DNA from: Streptomyces sp. MRC013
GTDB lineage: Bacteria > Actinomycetota > Actinomycetes > Streptomycetales > Streptomycetaceae
DNA: 64,000 nt
Assembly: GCF_023614235.1 (NCBI RefSeq)
Contig: NZ_CP094264.1
Span: forward strand, 3,038,001-3,102,000
Reading direction: 5' to 3'
Shown: positions 58,055 to 63,285 of the stretch, piece by piece
Layout of the letters: the number at the start of each line of letters is the position of its first letter
Numbering within the stretch: position 1 is the first letter of the stretch
Made by a program: the position numbers and the translations under genes
The notes under the pieces: model-generated
The model's database searches: none
The model's input: only the letters and a program-made list of their open reading frames with translations
What the model was told of the DNA's origin: nothing

Positions 58055-58662
58055 GGGGCTCGCCTCCGATGGGGTCGGTCCGGCGGAGTGGTCCGGCGGA
58101 GTCGGTCGGTACGACGCGGTGGTCACGGGGACCGGCGCGGGACGTAGTTCGAAATCATTTCCCGACTCACCGCCGCTATGCGGGCCGCCCCGGCGGGGGC
58201 CGTGCGGTGCGCCGCTCCCCGGGGACGGTGCGGGGCGCCCCGGGCCACCGCGCACCCACGGCACACGCCCACGCGCCCACCGCCCCGCCCGCAGTCCGGC
58301 GACCCCACGCCCCGGCGCCCCGGCGAACGCCGGGTCGGCGTCGGATCACCGGCCGGGCGGGCGGGGCGTGCCCGCCGGACGGACGGCACCGCGGGTTCGG
58401 GCGGTACGGCGGCGCCCGGACCGGCCGACCGGGGCGGGACGCGACGGGGGGTCCACCCGGTCCGGCCTCTCCGGCCTCTCCGGCCTCTCCGGCCTCTCCG
58501 GCCTCTCCGGCCTCTCCGGCCTCTCCGGCCTCTCCGGCCTCTCCGGCCTCTCCGGCCTCTCCGGCCTCTCCGGCCTCTCCGGCCTCACCGGGCGGCCGAT
58601 GCGGCCGGACCGGCTGATCCGGCCGGGCGGGACCGCGACGGCCCCGCCCGCCCGGCCGGGGA
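58055..58662. other. Intergenic region containing a 9-bp minisatellite
   Basis: About 610 bp without a gene. The 126-bp tandem array at 58462-58587 dominates its right part; the left part is GC-rich unique DNA that includes the enoyl-CoA hydratase promoter region. Confidence 0.65.
58462..58587 (+). repeat. 14-copy 9-bp tandem repeat
   Basis: CCGGCCTCT is repeated 13 times without change from 58462 to 58578, then once as CCGGCCTCA (58579-58587). A reading through it gives Ser-Gly-Leu repeats, but no gene frame continues on both sides. Only 75 bp separate it from the stop of the citrate synthase gene. Confidence 0.95.
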
Positions 58663-59763
58663 TCAGGAGACGATGTCCTCGTGGCCGGCGATCTCGCGGG
58701 GGTCGCGGGGACCCGGGCCGATGTAGCGGGCCGACGGGCGGACCAGGCGGCCCGTGCGCTTCTGCTCCAGGATGTGGGCCGACCAGCCGGCGGTGCGGGC
58801 GCAGGTGAACATGGATGTGAACATGTGCGCCGGGACCTCCGCGAAGTCCAGGACGATCGCCGCCCAGAACTCCACGTTCGTCGCCAGGACCCGGTCCGGG
58901 CGGCGGTTGTGCAGCTCCTCCAGGGCGGCCCTCTCCAGGGCCTCCGCCACCTCGAAGCGCGGCGCGGCCAGCTCGCGGGCCGTGCGGCGCAGGACCCGGG
59001 CGCGCGGGTCCTCGGCGCGGTACACGCGGTGGCCGAAACCCATCAGCCGCTCGCCCCCGTCCAGGGCGCGCTTCACGTACGCGACGGCGTCACCGGTCCG
59101 CTCGATCTCCTCGATCATGCCGAGCACCCGCGACGGCGCGCCGCCGTGCAGCGGCCCCGACATGGCGCCGACCGCGCCGGACAGCGCCGCCGCCACGTCC
59201 GCGCCGGTCGACGCGATCACGCGCGCGGTGAACGTCGAGGCGTTCATGCCGTGCTCGGCGGCCGACGTCCAGTACGCGTCGACGGCCTTCACGTGCTTCG
59301 GGTCCGGCTCGCCGCGCCAGCGGATCATGAACCGCTCGACCACCGACTGCGCCTTGTCGATCTCGCGCTGCGGCACCATCGGCAGCCCTTGCCCGCGCGC
59401 GCTCTGCGCCACGTACGACAGTGCCATGACCGCCGCCCGCGCCAGGTCGTCGCGGGCCTGTTCCTCGCCGATGTCGAGCAGCGGCCTCAGCCCCCAGACG
59501 GGGGCGAGCATCGCCAGCGCGGACTGCACGTCCACGCGGACGTCGCCGGAGTGGATCGGGATCGGGAAGGGCTCGGCCGGGGGCAGGCCGGGGTTGAACG
59601 CGCCGTCGACGAGCAGGCCCCACACGTTCCCGAAGGACACGTGGCCCACCAGGTCCTCGATGTCGACGCCCCGGTACCGGAGGGCGCCGCCCTCCTTGTC
59701 CGGTTCGGCGATCTCCGTCTCGAACGCGACGACTCCCTCGAGCCCGGGTACGAAGTCGGACAT
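58663..59763 (-). CDS. Citrate synthase 2
   Basis: The 366-residue type-I/II citrate synthase condenses oxaloacetate with acetyl-CoA. The start is [19 protein letters not shown] with [13 protein letters not shown]. The catalytic residues are found in [18 protein letters not shown] (His), [18 protein letters not shown] (His and Arg), and the C-terminal [23 protein letters not shown] (Asp). The C-terminal end [18 protein letters not shown] is usual for the short actinobacterial citrate synthase 2. It is divergent from pdxH. Confidence 0.94.
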
Positions 59764-59945
59764 CTGGCGGCTCCTCGTGGTGGCGTGTGCGGGGAGGGAA
59801 CGAACAGGTGACCCAGCCGTCGAGTCTGTCGGGTCCCCCCGAAGCGGGGAAGCGTGACATCGGGCACAGTGCGCCGTTCGACCGGGCGGGGCCGGGGCCG
59901 CGGCGTGCGGGGCGGACTGGGAAGGCCGCAGCGCCCTGGTGCAGG

Positions 59946-60650
59946 ATGGACGCCGTGACCGACGCCCTCCACCCAGCCGTGGACCCCGCCCTCGACCCGG
60001 CGCCCATGCGCGAGCAGTACCACACCCGCGAGCTCGCGGAGCGCGACCTGGCCGCGCACCCCATGGAGCAGTTCGCGCGCTGGTTCGCGGACGCGGCGTC
60101 CCGCGGCGACGTCCACGAGCCGAACGCCATGGTCGTGGCGACGGCCACCCCCGACGGCCGCCCCTCGGCGCGCACCGTGCTGCTGAAGCACTTCGACGCG
60201 CGCGGCTTCGTCTTCTTCACCAACTACGACTCCCGCAAGGGTGCCGAACTGACCGCCAACCCGTACGCCTCGCTCCTCTTCCCCTGGCACCCGATCGCCC
60301 GCCAGGTCGTCGTCACCGGCTCGGTCGCGCGCGTCGGCCGCGACGAGACGGCCGCGTACTTCCGCACCCGCCCGCACGGCTCCCAGCTCGGTGCCTGGGC
60401 CAGCGCGCAGTCGTCCGTCATCGGCTCCCGCGCCGAGCTGCTCGCCCGGTACGAGGAGCTGGCGGCCCGCTACCCGCAGGACGAGCGGGTGCCCGTACCG
60501 CCGCACTGGGGCGGGTTCCTGGTCGCGCCGGAGACCGTCGAGTTCTGGCAGGGGCACGAGAACCGGCTCCACGACCGGCTCCGGTACGTGCGGCGGCCGG
60601 AGTCGGAGGGCGACGGCGTGGGCTGGCGGGTGGAGCGGCTCGCGCCGTAG
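59946..60650 (+). CDS. pdxH: Pyridoxamine 5'-phosphate oxidase PdxH
   Basis: The 234-residue FMN enzyme oxidises pyridoxamine- or pyridoxine-phosphate to PLP. The sequence has [57 protein letters not shown], which contacts FMN phosphate, [16 protein letters not shown] and, at the end, [19 protein letters not shown] with RLHDRLRY for the PLP ring. The ATG at 59946 and a GTG three codons later are both possible starts. It provides the cofactor used by SerC nearby, though the two are not an operon. It is divergent from citrate synthase 2. Confidence 0.95.
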
Positions 60651-60804
60651 CGCCCCGGGCGCTTCCCCCTCCGGGCGTCCCCGGCCGCCGGCCTCTCCAG
60701 GCGCCTTCGAGCCCCTACGGGTCCCCCGGGCCCCCGGGTCTCCGGACCCCTGGGTCTACGGGCCCCCGGGTCCCTGGGTCCCCCGGGTCTCCGGGTCCCC
60801 CGGG

Positions 60805-61003
60805 GTACGAGAAAGCCCGCGGGCTCTGCTCCCTCCTCCGGTGAGGAGAGGAGGGGTCGGCCGGATGTGCCGACGAGCCCGCGGGCCGGTGACTGCTCGG
60901 TGTACGGCAGGGGGCCTGCCGCCGTGTGACGGCAGGCCTCAGCCCGCAGTCACCTCACGCATCCGAAAAGAAACCACTTCCGGATCACCTCCCTTCTCGT
61001 GTG
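60805..61003 (-). ncRNA. Putative structured small RNA/leader with mini-ORF and terminator
   Basis: Read on the minus strand, the region behind a near-consensus promoter gives about 200 nt: a short leader, an SD perfectly complementary to 16S rRNA, a 12-codon ORF, a 9-bp hairpin (60913-60921 with 60930-60938) that starts at its stop codon, then a 12-bp closing stem GCCCGCGGGCTC (60815-60826) with GAGCCCGCGGGC (60875-60886). That stem encloses two smaller hairpins (GTCGGC/GCCGAC and CCCTCCTC/GAGGAGGG arms), and UUUC follows. No coding gene follows on this strand before the antisense of pdxH, so it is a free-standing unit rather than the leader of a neighbour. Its function and name are unknown to me. 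Confidence 0.62.
60939..60977 (-). CDS. 12-residue leader-type mini-ORF
   Basis: GTG at 60977 to TGA ending at 60939 encodes a 12-residue peptide (VVSFRMREVTAG). GGAGGTGATCC at 60992-60982, an 11-base perfect match to the 16S rRNA 3' end, sits ten bases upstream, far stronger than most ribosome sites in the window. An internal ATG would give MREVTAG. No run of a single amino acid suggests a classical attenuation sensor. Confidence 0.5.
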   Translation of the reverse strand: MVSFRMREVTAG

Positions 61004-61008
61004 CTCCC

Positions 61009-61037
61009 ACGCTAGGAACCCGTCCCGCGGCGTTCAA
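61009..61037 (-). promoter_or_regulatory. HrdB-type promoter of the small-RNA unit
   Basis: On the minus strand TTGAAC (61037-61032) and TAGCGT (61014-61009) are separated by exactly 17 bp, close to the housekeeping consensus. The start of transcription should be near 61001-61003, giving a leader of about ten bases before the SD. Confidence 0.7.
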
Positions 61038-61137
61038 CCGAATTTCCCGAACCCCGTGTGCCCTGCGTCACGTTCCAGTTGAATGGCCGGGCGCGTCGCG
61101 AGGGCACGCGCGTACACGTCCTGTGAGGGGTGCCGGG

Positions 61138-62457
61138 ATGAGCGCGTCCGGGAGCGGAACGGCGCGGGCCGACGGCGACCTGCTCGGTGCGCTGCTGGAG
61201 GGGATGGACGCCGCGCTGTGCGCGTTCGACGCGGACGGCGTGGTCACCCACTGGAATCCCGGCGCCGAACGGGTCCTCGGCTGGTCCGCCGCCGAGGCCG
61301 TCGGCCGTCGCGGCCTCGGCGGATGGGCCGCGCGGCCCGCGGACGCCGCCGCGATCGAGGCCCGGCTGGCGGCCGCGGCGGACGGCCCCGGTCGCGTCGT
61401 CCACGAGTTCGCGCTGCTCCGCAAGGACGGCGGCCGGGTCCTCGTCCGCGCCCAGACGTGCGGCGTCCCGGGCGTGGACGGGCGCCCGGCCGGGACGTAC
61501 TGCGCCTTCCACGAGGTCCACGCGCAGCTGGGCTTCGAGCGCTCGGTCGCGCTCGGCGAGGCCCTGTTCGGGGAGGCGCCGTACGGGCTCGTCGTCGTCG
61601 ACGCCGACCTGCGCCCCGCCGTCGTGAACGCCCGGGCCGCCCGGGCGTTCGGCGTCCCCCGCGCGGACCTGCTCGGCCGGCCCCTCGGCGACCTCCTGGC
61701 CCAGGGCGCCGACCGGCTGGAGGCGGCCCTGGAGCACGTGCTGGCGGAGGGCGACCCCCGCTCGTCGGCCGAGTTGTGGGCGACGGCCCGCACCCCGGAG
61801 GGGGAGCGGCGGCGCTGCTGGCGCGGCGCCTTCCTGCGGCTCTCGTCACCGCTGTCGCGGAAGCCCGCGCCACTGGGCGTGGCCTGGCTGTTCGAGGACG
61901 TCACCGAGGCGCGGCTCGCCGAGCAGAACGCGGACCGGCTGCGGTTCCGGGCCAGCCAGCTGCACCGGGCCGGTACCGCCGCGGCCGAGTGCGAGGACCC
62001 GGCGGAGGCGGCGATCGTGTACCTCGACTTCGCGCTCGCCGGGTTCGCCGACGACGCCCTGCTCGACCTGGTCCGCGACGACGGCAAGCGGCTCGTGCGG
62101 GTCGCGGCCACGCCCGTCCGGGCGCCCGGTCCGGTGGGGTTCGCCGCGGGCGCGGGGTTCCCCGTGCCCTACGCCCCCGGGCACCCGGCGCTGCGTGCGC
62201 TGGACCGGGCGGGCACGGTGCGGGCCGGCACCCGGCCCCCGGAGGGCGGGCCCGGGTGGCCGGCGGAGCGCCACTGGCCGGCCGGCACGGCCCACGCCCT
62301 GTGCGCGGCGCTGCGCAGCCGGGGGCGGACCCTGGGTGTGGTGACGTTCCTCCGCTCGTCGGGCCGCCCGTCCTTCGAACGCGCGGACGTCGCGTACGCG
62401 GAGAGCGTCGCCGTACGGGTCGCGGCCTCCCTGGACCTGGCGGGGCCGGTGGGGTGA
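61138..62457 (+). CDS. PAS/GAF-domain sensory protein
   Basis: The protein has 439 residues. Residues about 15-125 form a first PAS domain (LEGMDAALCAFDADGVVTHWNPGAERVLGWSAAEAVGRRG). Residues about 140-260 form a second (APYGLVVVDADLRPAVVNARAARAFGVPRADLLGRPL, with a PAC-like WRGAFLRLSSPLSR). The end (about 290-435) looks like a GAF domain (LHRAGTAAAECEDPAEAAIVYLDFAL ... TLGVVTFLRSSGRPSFERADVAYAESVAVRVAASL). No SpoIIE phosphatase or kinase domain is attached, unlike most streptomycete PAS/GAF proteins. It may be a truncated relative or a protein-protein switch. The ATG at 61138 follows GAGGGGTGCCGG. Confidence 0.85.
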   Translation: MSASGSGTARADGDLLGALLEGMDAALCAFDADGVVTHWNPGAERVLGWSAAEAVGRRGLGGWAARPADAAAIEARLAAAADGPGRVVHEFALLRKDGGRVLVRAQTCGVPGVDGRPAGTYCAFHEVHAQLGFERSVALGEALFGEAPYGLVVVDADLRPAVVNARAARAFGVPRADLLGRPLGDLLAQGADRLEAALEHVLAEGDPRSSAELWATARTPEGERRRCWRGAFLRLSSPLSRKPAPLGVAWLFEDVTEARLAEQNADRLRFRASQLHRAGTAAAECEDPAEAAIVYLDFALAGFADDALLDLVRDDGKRLVRVAATPVRAPGPVGFAAGAGFPVPYAPGHPALRALDRAGTVRAGTRPPEGGPGWPAERHWPAGTAHALCAALRSRGRTLGVVTFLRSSGRPSFERADVAYAESVAVRVAASLDLAGPVG

Positions 62458-62523: not shown

Positions 62524-63285
62524 CTACCGGCGGTAGAAGATCCGGTCCGCGTGCTCCGCCATCACGCGGTCGTTCCACTCGCGGCCCCCGTCGACGTTGG
62601 CGGAGCGCAGCAGCGGGGGCTCGATGCCGCGGCGCACCAGTTCCCCGGCCGCCGCGGCCACGACGGCCTGCATGAGCGCCCCGGCCACGAGGGTGGAGGC
62701 GGGTGCGAACGGCGCCCCGACGCCCTCGTGCGCGAGCTCCGCGTCCCCGACGGCGACCTTGGAGTCGAGGACGATGTCGCAGTGGTCCCTGAGGAAGGTC
62801 CCCGAGGCGTTTCGGGGGCGGGTCCCCTCCGCGTACGCCGCGGACGTGACGCCGACGACCTTCAGGCCCCGCTCGCGGGCGCCGGCGGCCATCTCGACGG
62901 GCAGGGCGTTGCGCCCGGACAGCGAGACGACCACCAGCAGGTCCCCGGCGCGCGCGGGCGACGAGTCGAGGACCGCGGCGGCGAGGCCCGCCACATGCTC
63001 CAGGGCGGAGCCGAGCGTCACGGGCGTCACGTCGACGCCGGCCGCGCCGGGGACGGCGAGCAGGTTCATCAGGGCGAGGCCGCCCGCCCGGTACACGACG
63101 TCCTGCGCGGGCAGCGACGAGTGGCCGGCGCCGAAGGCGAAGAGGCGGCCGCCGGCCGCGACCGTGTCGGCGACGGCGGCTCCCGCGGCGGCGATGGGCG
63201 CGGCCTCCTCGTCCCGGACCCGCCGGAGCAGGCCGATCGCGGCGTCGAGGAACCGATCGGCCAGCGTGTCGTCGTCCATCGGCAC
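62524..63285 (-). CDS. SIS-domain sugar-phosphate-binding protein
   Basis: The protein has about 253 residues with a SIS fold: [24 protein letters not shown] forms the first phosphate loop, and [33 protein letters not shown] the second. The C-terminal part is helical ([22 protein letters not shown]). Such proteins isomerise or bind phosphosugars, and many actinobacterial copies carry the DUF2529-like end seen here. The GTG at 63285 has AGGAAGG upstream; an ATG two codons later is an alternative. It is divergent from the dmdR gene, the conserved streptomycete order. Confidence 0.85.

Follow-up and report, generated by a model that had tools for sequence, protein, structure and literature searches.

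An Ms_IGR-5 small RNA of Streptomyces sp. MRC013 with a 12-codon reading frame and a match to the 16S rRNA tail

The locus and its RNA family

The window, that is, the whole stretch of 64,000 nucleotides analysed, contains an intergenic gap near 61 kb. By Pfam, a citrate synthase gene (58663-59763, minus strand) is followed by the pyridoxamine 5'-phosphate oxidase gene pdxH (59787-60650, plus strand), a gene for a PAS/GAF protein (from 61138, plus strand) and a gene for a SIS-domain protein (62524-63285, minus strand). On the minus strand between pdxH and the PAS/GAF gene, positions 60807-61002 match Rfam family RF02471 (Ms_IGR-5) with 72.2 bits against a curated cut-off of 45 (E = 4.9e-14), over the full length of the model (positions 1-184 of 184). 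This was the sole match to Rfam 15 at curated cut-offs across the whole window, and the 5.33 Mb genome contains one RF02471 match in all. As a family member the locus is ordinary, and the family itself is already known. The 5' end is placed near 61002 on the combined basis of the model and the promoter described below. The predicted fold is more stable than expected by chance (z-score -6.56; none of 200 shuffles was equally stable).

The earlier note had described this region as a free-standing small-RNA unit with a mini-ORF. The unit is real and the elements listed for it can all be read on the minus strand, but it is not new, being a member of RF02471. Comparison with relatives bears the description out: the promoter box, the Shine-Dalgarno (SD) segment and the stems are conserved, and some of the pairs show compensatory changes (in the helices P1 and P4 and in the loop contact, see below).

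RF02471 was matched in 120 of the 121 genomes of a genus sample, in 249 of 394 genomes of a class sample (247 above the cut-off) and in 70 of 396 genomes of a phylum sample (35 above the cut-off), each sample including the genome under study. The 145 class genomes without a match are not proven losses; six candidates were scored per genome. A sequence pattern independent of the model gave matches in 220/394 genomes of the class and 77/396 of the phylum, and among the matches listed for these two samples the reversed pattern gave 0. When named genomes were scanned for the form found in other classes, at least 119 stretches were obtained; the 80 that were listed came, according to their titles, mainly from Acidimicrobiia, Solirubrobacterales/Thermoleophilaceae, Nitriliruptoraceae, Nakamurella and unranked Actinomycetota. 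Among the matches listed, two loci carry the title Acidobacteriota/Acidobacteria (L243, L283) and one Chlamydiae (L297), which points either to misnamed or mixed metagenome bins or to a wider spread of the motif. Two genomes (G069 and G078) have, besides the main match, a weaker one to RF02471, of 27.8 and 44.3 bits respectively, below the cut-off in either case.

For the comparison of members, 228 loci were oriented and 9 duplicates removed, leaving 219 distinct members; locus L175 is missing from this set, having been lost to a contig end. All 219 were anchored on GGAGGTG and the subsequent GAGGTG, and the invariance of these two words is therefore partly by construction.

The family was originally described by Li et al. 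(2013, RNA; in the reference list of PMC10454040). For S. lividans TK24, Ms_IGR-5 is flagged as transcribed (SLIV_16488; PMC8079986), and in S. avermitilis, where two of 139 small-RNA transcription units were matched to Rfam, it is one of the two (PMC8780764). A small RNA detected in M. smegmatis overlaps IGR-5 (PMC10454040). In M. abscessus and M. smegmatis, members of the family have ribosome-protected reads; the authors caution that many non-coding RNAs are ribosome-protected without clear evidence of translation (PMC4974804). From these members in other Streptomyces and in M. smegmatis, expression as a separate small RNA is predicted by homology for the locus studied here. In the available excerpts of these four papers, the accounts of this widespread family give detection and ribosome-protected reads, not a fixed-length ORF and not a mechanism. 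The novelty of the ORF and of the loop contact described below is judged against these later accounts, the description by Li et al. lying outside the comparison.

Transcription signals, 3' end and neighbouring genes

A -35-like TTGAAC (61032-61037) and a -10-like TAGCGT (61009-61014) lie 17 nt apart on the minus strand, exactly as previously noted. A TANNNT box 12-13 nt upstream of the 5' end is present in 209/219 members, against 2/504 upstream control windows. Of the 209 members having the -10 box, 181 also carry TTG at an appropriate spacing, a figure without a control set.

The 3' domain (60807-60887, minus strand) is predicted to fold into a long closing stem of about 12 bp that encloses two hairpins and ends in a short U-containing tail. 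It is a probable terminator. The U-containing terminator claimed earlier has its weak points: only a short T-run follows the final stem (UUUCUCGU), and generic scans of 60600-61200 detected neither a promoter nor a terminator. On the family counts and the predicted fold, the unit would have its own promoter and, probably, its own terminator. The predicted fold of 60807-61002 also joins the two ends of the RNA, ACGAGAA with UUUCUCG. As a family feature this end-to-end pairing was rejected: the longest contiguous pairing is 3-4 in 166/219 members and 8 in only 1/219.

The next gene past the 3' end, pdxH, is convergent, which agrees with the view that the RNA is not the leader of a downstream gene: the same-strand target that a leader would have is missing here. 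A further proposal, that the RNA represses pdxH read-through by antisense, found no support; the RNA ends about 157 bp past the pdxH stop codon, and the neighbours differ in relatives. Three relatives (L072, L079 and L081) carry pdxH upstream of the RNA and in the same orientation. Flanks, at most 1.5 or 2.5 kb long, were compared at 126 loci: 51 have pdxH or citrate synthase nearby, 2 have the PAS gene alone, and 73 have none of the pdxH, citrate synthase, PAS and SIS genes. At ten loci examined closely, the genes past the 3' end (Pfam, six proteins) encode a heme-binding beta-barrel protein, DNA ligase or PNPOx and, L104 excepted (see below), lie on the opposite strand. Across the loci compared (126 flanks, ten of them examined closely) no common cis target is apparent.

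These neighbour data disfavour both an antisense to pdxH and a cis leader. That the RNA serves as a leader or antisense regulator of a neighbour, pdxH or another, is in our opinion highly improbable. Such a role would suit the attenuator-like anatomy, the proximity of pdxH or citrate synthase in the 51 loci and one locus (L104) at which a histidine-phosphatase family gene lies on the same strand about 52 nt past the RNA; against it stand the convergent gene found here, the 3' genes that differ between clades and the 73 loci lacking all four window neighbours. By gene order, a local cis role may exist in some relatives, L104 for example.

Two repeat arrays lie in the same region. Directly downstream of the citrate synthase gene, positions 58457-58625 hold a tandem array of the 9-bp unit TCCGGCCTC (14.6 copies with 99% match in 58461-58591), and a GC-rich array of 16/17-bp repeats (60718-60804) takes up a large part of the interval separating the pdxH stop codon from the small RNA's 3' end.

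Complementarity to the 16S rRNA tail and the mini-ORF

The earlier note had credited the SD segment (GGAGGTGATCC, 60992-60982 on the minus strand) with 11 bases complementary to the 16S rRNA tail. These are present, but the extent was understated: AGAAGGGAGGTGATCC (60982-60997, minus strand) can pair with all of the last 16 bases of 16S rRNA, by 15 Watson-Crick pairs and one G-U. The six 16S genes of the genome terminate in GGATCACCTCCTTTCT. With G-U allowed, the full 16-base pairing pattern occurs at 7 genome sites, namely the antisense strands of the six 16S ends and this RNA; the reversed pattern occurs once and the shorter GGAGGTGATCC 19 times. When the window was scanned in 20-nt pieces at 4-nt steps, the duplex of the RNA with the 16S tail was the best in the window at -30.2 kcal/mol, the best elsewhere reaching -22.4 kcal/mol. 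The family mean is -28.5 kcal/mol. All 16 tail positions are pairable in 183 of the 219 members, 15 in 27, 14 in 8 and 13 in 1.

Such a site could make the RNA a decoy, which would occupy the 16S tails of 30S subunits and slow initiation elsewhere, the ORF merely releasing captured ribosomes. The strongest 16S-tail duplex of the window and the sole full 16-base site outside the rDNA speak for this; a decoy would require a high copy number and, taken alone, leaves the fixed length of the ORF and the loop contact unexplained. We consider it unlikely, with perhaps one chance in five.

The mini-ORF runs from a GTG at 60977 to a TGA ending at 60939 (minus strand) and has 12 sense codons (MVSFRMREVTAG), as had been claimed. 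Among the 219 members the start codon is ATG in 115, TTG in 54, GTG in 37 and none of these in 13; the stop codon is TAG in 179, TGA in 27 and TAA in 13. The number of sense codons is 12 in 195 members, 13 in 3, 14 in 7 and 17 in 1. A start trimer lies 21 nt upstream of GAGGTG in 197/219 members (the next best offset gives 66), and a stop lies 15 nt downstream of the first base of GAGGTG in 217/219. In the other two frames, 141/219 and 172/219 members are without any start in the loop. By eye, the 13 members lacking ATG, GTG and TTG have an in-frame ATT, ATC, CTG or ACG near the expected position, which we infer to be near-cognate starts. Among loci from a later pattern search, 20/20 have an in-frame ATG, GTG or TTG 21, 24, 27 or 30 nt upstream of GAGGTG.

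In codon 1 the first base is variable and the other two are fixed; codons 2-4 are variable at all three bases. The mini-ORF thus looks to be selected for its start, stop and length and not for residues 2-4. As the length is constrained and the first residues are not, selection probably acts on translation itself. Two further readings are weakened by these data. One is an ordinary base-pairing small RNA acting in trans, in which the ORF is incidental. Its own promoter, its own 3' end, the lack of a common cis gene at the examined loci and the description of the family as small RNAs would all suit it, but an incidental ORF would not need an exactly conserved start, stop and length, and we rate this reading a little below the decoy. 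The other is a tiny mRNA encoding a functional 12-residue peptide, for which the conserved start and stop and the E-V at codons 8-9 in 219/219 members could be cited. Codons 8-9, however, include one alignment anchor, which affects their conservation, the bases of codons 5-11 are constrained by helices, and codons 2-4 vary at three bases. The codon entropies disfavour a functional peptide product, and we think it improbable.

Helices, loop contact and a proposed ribosome-dependent fold

Four helices, P1 to P4, and a loop contact can be described. P1 (60996-61001 with 60956-60961, minus strand) is an imperfect helix around the SD and the start codon. Of its six pairs, three are retained in 152, 174 and 173 of 214 rows; the corresponding shuffle means are 116, 150 and 133, and 0/500 shuffles were equally high. 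Pair i-5/j-4 forms in 62/214 rows, below the shuffles (82), which gives P1 an internal mismatch; a further two pairs carry no information, as one or both of their sides hardly vary. Slid controls were mostly without excess, one slid pair (i-9/j-1) being reached by 2/500 shuffles. P3 (60913-60941) is the hairpin, seen in the sequence and in the predicted fold, which the earlier note had placed at the stop codon of the ORF. P4 joins GGUGACUGC (60946-60954, codons 9-11) to GCAGUCACC (60888-60896), with 9/9 pairs here. Among the 219 members 9/9 pairs form in 166, 8 in 25, 7 in 21 and fewer in 7, counts that are biased upward because the 3' strand was selected for the best complementarity among stretches that end in a word resembling CACC. 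Three P4 pairs surpass all 500 shuffles. As the shuffles ignore relatedness, the covariation in P1 and P4 is to be taken as support and not as probabilities.

The GGAU in codons 5-6 (60961-60964) has two possible partners, the AUCC at 60982-60985 directly after the SD (forming P2) and the AUCC at 60863-60866 in the loop of a 3'-domain hairpin (60856-60874; stem GUCGGC/GCCGAC, loop ACAUCCG). Since the same GGAY pairs with either RUCC, P2 and the loop contact are mutually exclusive. GGAY covaries with the RUCC in the apical loop, and the window is a changed case: the combination is GGAC/GUCC in 198 of the 219 members, GGAU/AUCC in 9 (the window included), GGAU/GUCC in 5 and GGAC/AUCC in 2, with no call in 5. 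For these counts only loops with [AG]TCC were accepted, two earlier automatic choices having been noisy. By eye, the apparent exceptions L074 and L227 and the no-calls L039, L058 and L064 have GUCC in a plausible loop, and the no-calls L055 and L057 have UCGACC or UCGAUC opposite GGUCGA. The nine GGAU/AUCC members are spread over two sample families, f1 and f7, and at least two separate changes are therefore likely.

As a control with stems of at least 5 pairs, GTCC was found in a loop in 188 of 203 GGAC rows, and non-overlapping permutations in 12 to 46; of the overlapping permutations, TCCG was in a loop in 121 and CGTC in 104. In the 14 GGAU rows, ATCC was in a loop in 10, GTCC in 6 and CTCC in 5. 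Among held-out loci, GTCC was in a loop (stem of at least 4 pairs) in 18 of 19 GGAC rows, L409 being the exception; this test covers GGAC rows, and L393 (GGAU) was left out. The outer pair of P2 is broken in 26/219 members (A faces C in 17, T faces C in 8 and C faces C in 1). In the 17 A-C members the A still pairs with 16S rRNA, so P2 seems to be the weaker constraint. The structure line of the RF02471 model shows neither P4 nor the loop contact; both are described from the comparison of the 219 members.

By comparison, the reading frame runs across P1 (its 3' strand), the GGAY side of the loop contact and P4 (its 5' strand), and a ribosome using the frame must therefore open all three. The reading we prefer, although we give it an even chance of being right, is that of a self-standing RNA whose fold is opened or closed by ribosomes binding and translating the mini-ORF. 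30S subunits would bind the RNA through its 16S-tail match and translate the mini-ORF; initiation would open P1 and P2, a ribosome reading on as far as the stop codon would disrupt P4 and the loop contact, and ribosome traffic would in this way set the fold of the RNA. The positions at which ribosomes start and stop would be relevant, and not the identity of the peptide. The output would likelier be a change in which parts of the RNA are accessible to partners in trans, or a setting of the RNA's own lifetime, than control of a neighbour. If ribosome traffic does set the fold, the RNA would be a translation sensor without need of a cis gene. A bolder form, a ribosome sensor throughout the phylum in which the 16-base hook reads free 16S tails, the fixed-length ORF acts as a ruler and the GGAY-RUCC contact reports, is doubtful, and we give it about one chance in four. 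With an ORF of fixed length, an almost complete 16S match and a covarying contact, Ms_IGR-5, which is annotated without a function, becomes testable by a few mutants, and the anatomy obtained by comparison appears unusual enough to merit experiments.

In a translated leader peptide or attenuator, a short ORF overlaps mutually exclusive pairings and is followed by a terminator-like stem. The RNA resembles such a system in having a short ORF over exclusive pairings (GGAY with the RUCC after the SD or in the 3' loop) and a terminator-like stem; it differs in lacking a codirectional downstream gene at this locus, and its residues 2-4 are not conserved. The earlier image of an attenuator cut loose from any target fits as to anatomy, with the same-strand downstream gene absent here.

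There is also a likeness to CC2171 (RF01867), a Caulobacter small RNA, whose model too begins with GAAAGGAGGUGAUCC followed by an in-line GUG. Membership in RF01867 was rejected (20.2 bits against a cut-off of 75, alignment 60913-61004). Literature searches for CC2171 with Caulobacter, and for small RNAs pairing with the anti-SD, gave no match. The start of the CC2171 model is itself a near-complete match to the 16S tail, and it is possibly an analogue in another phylum.
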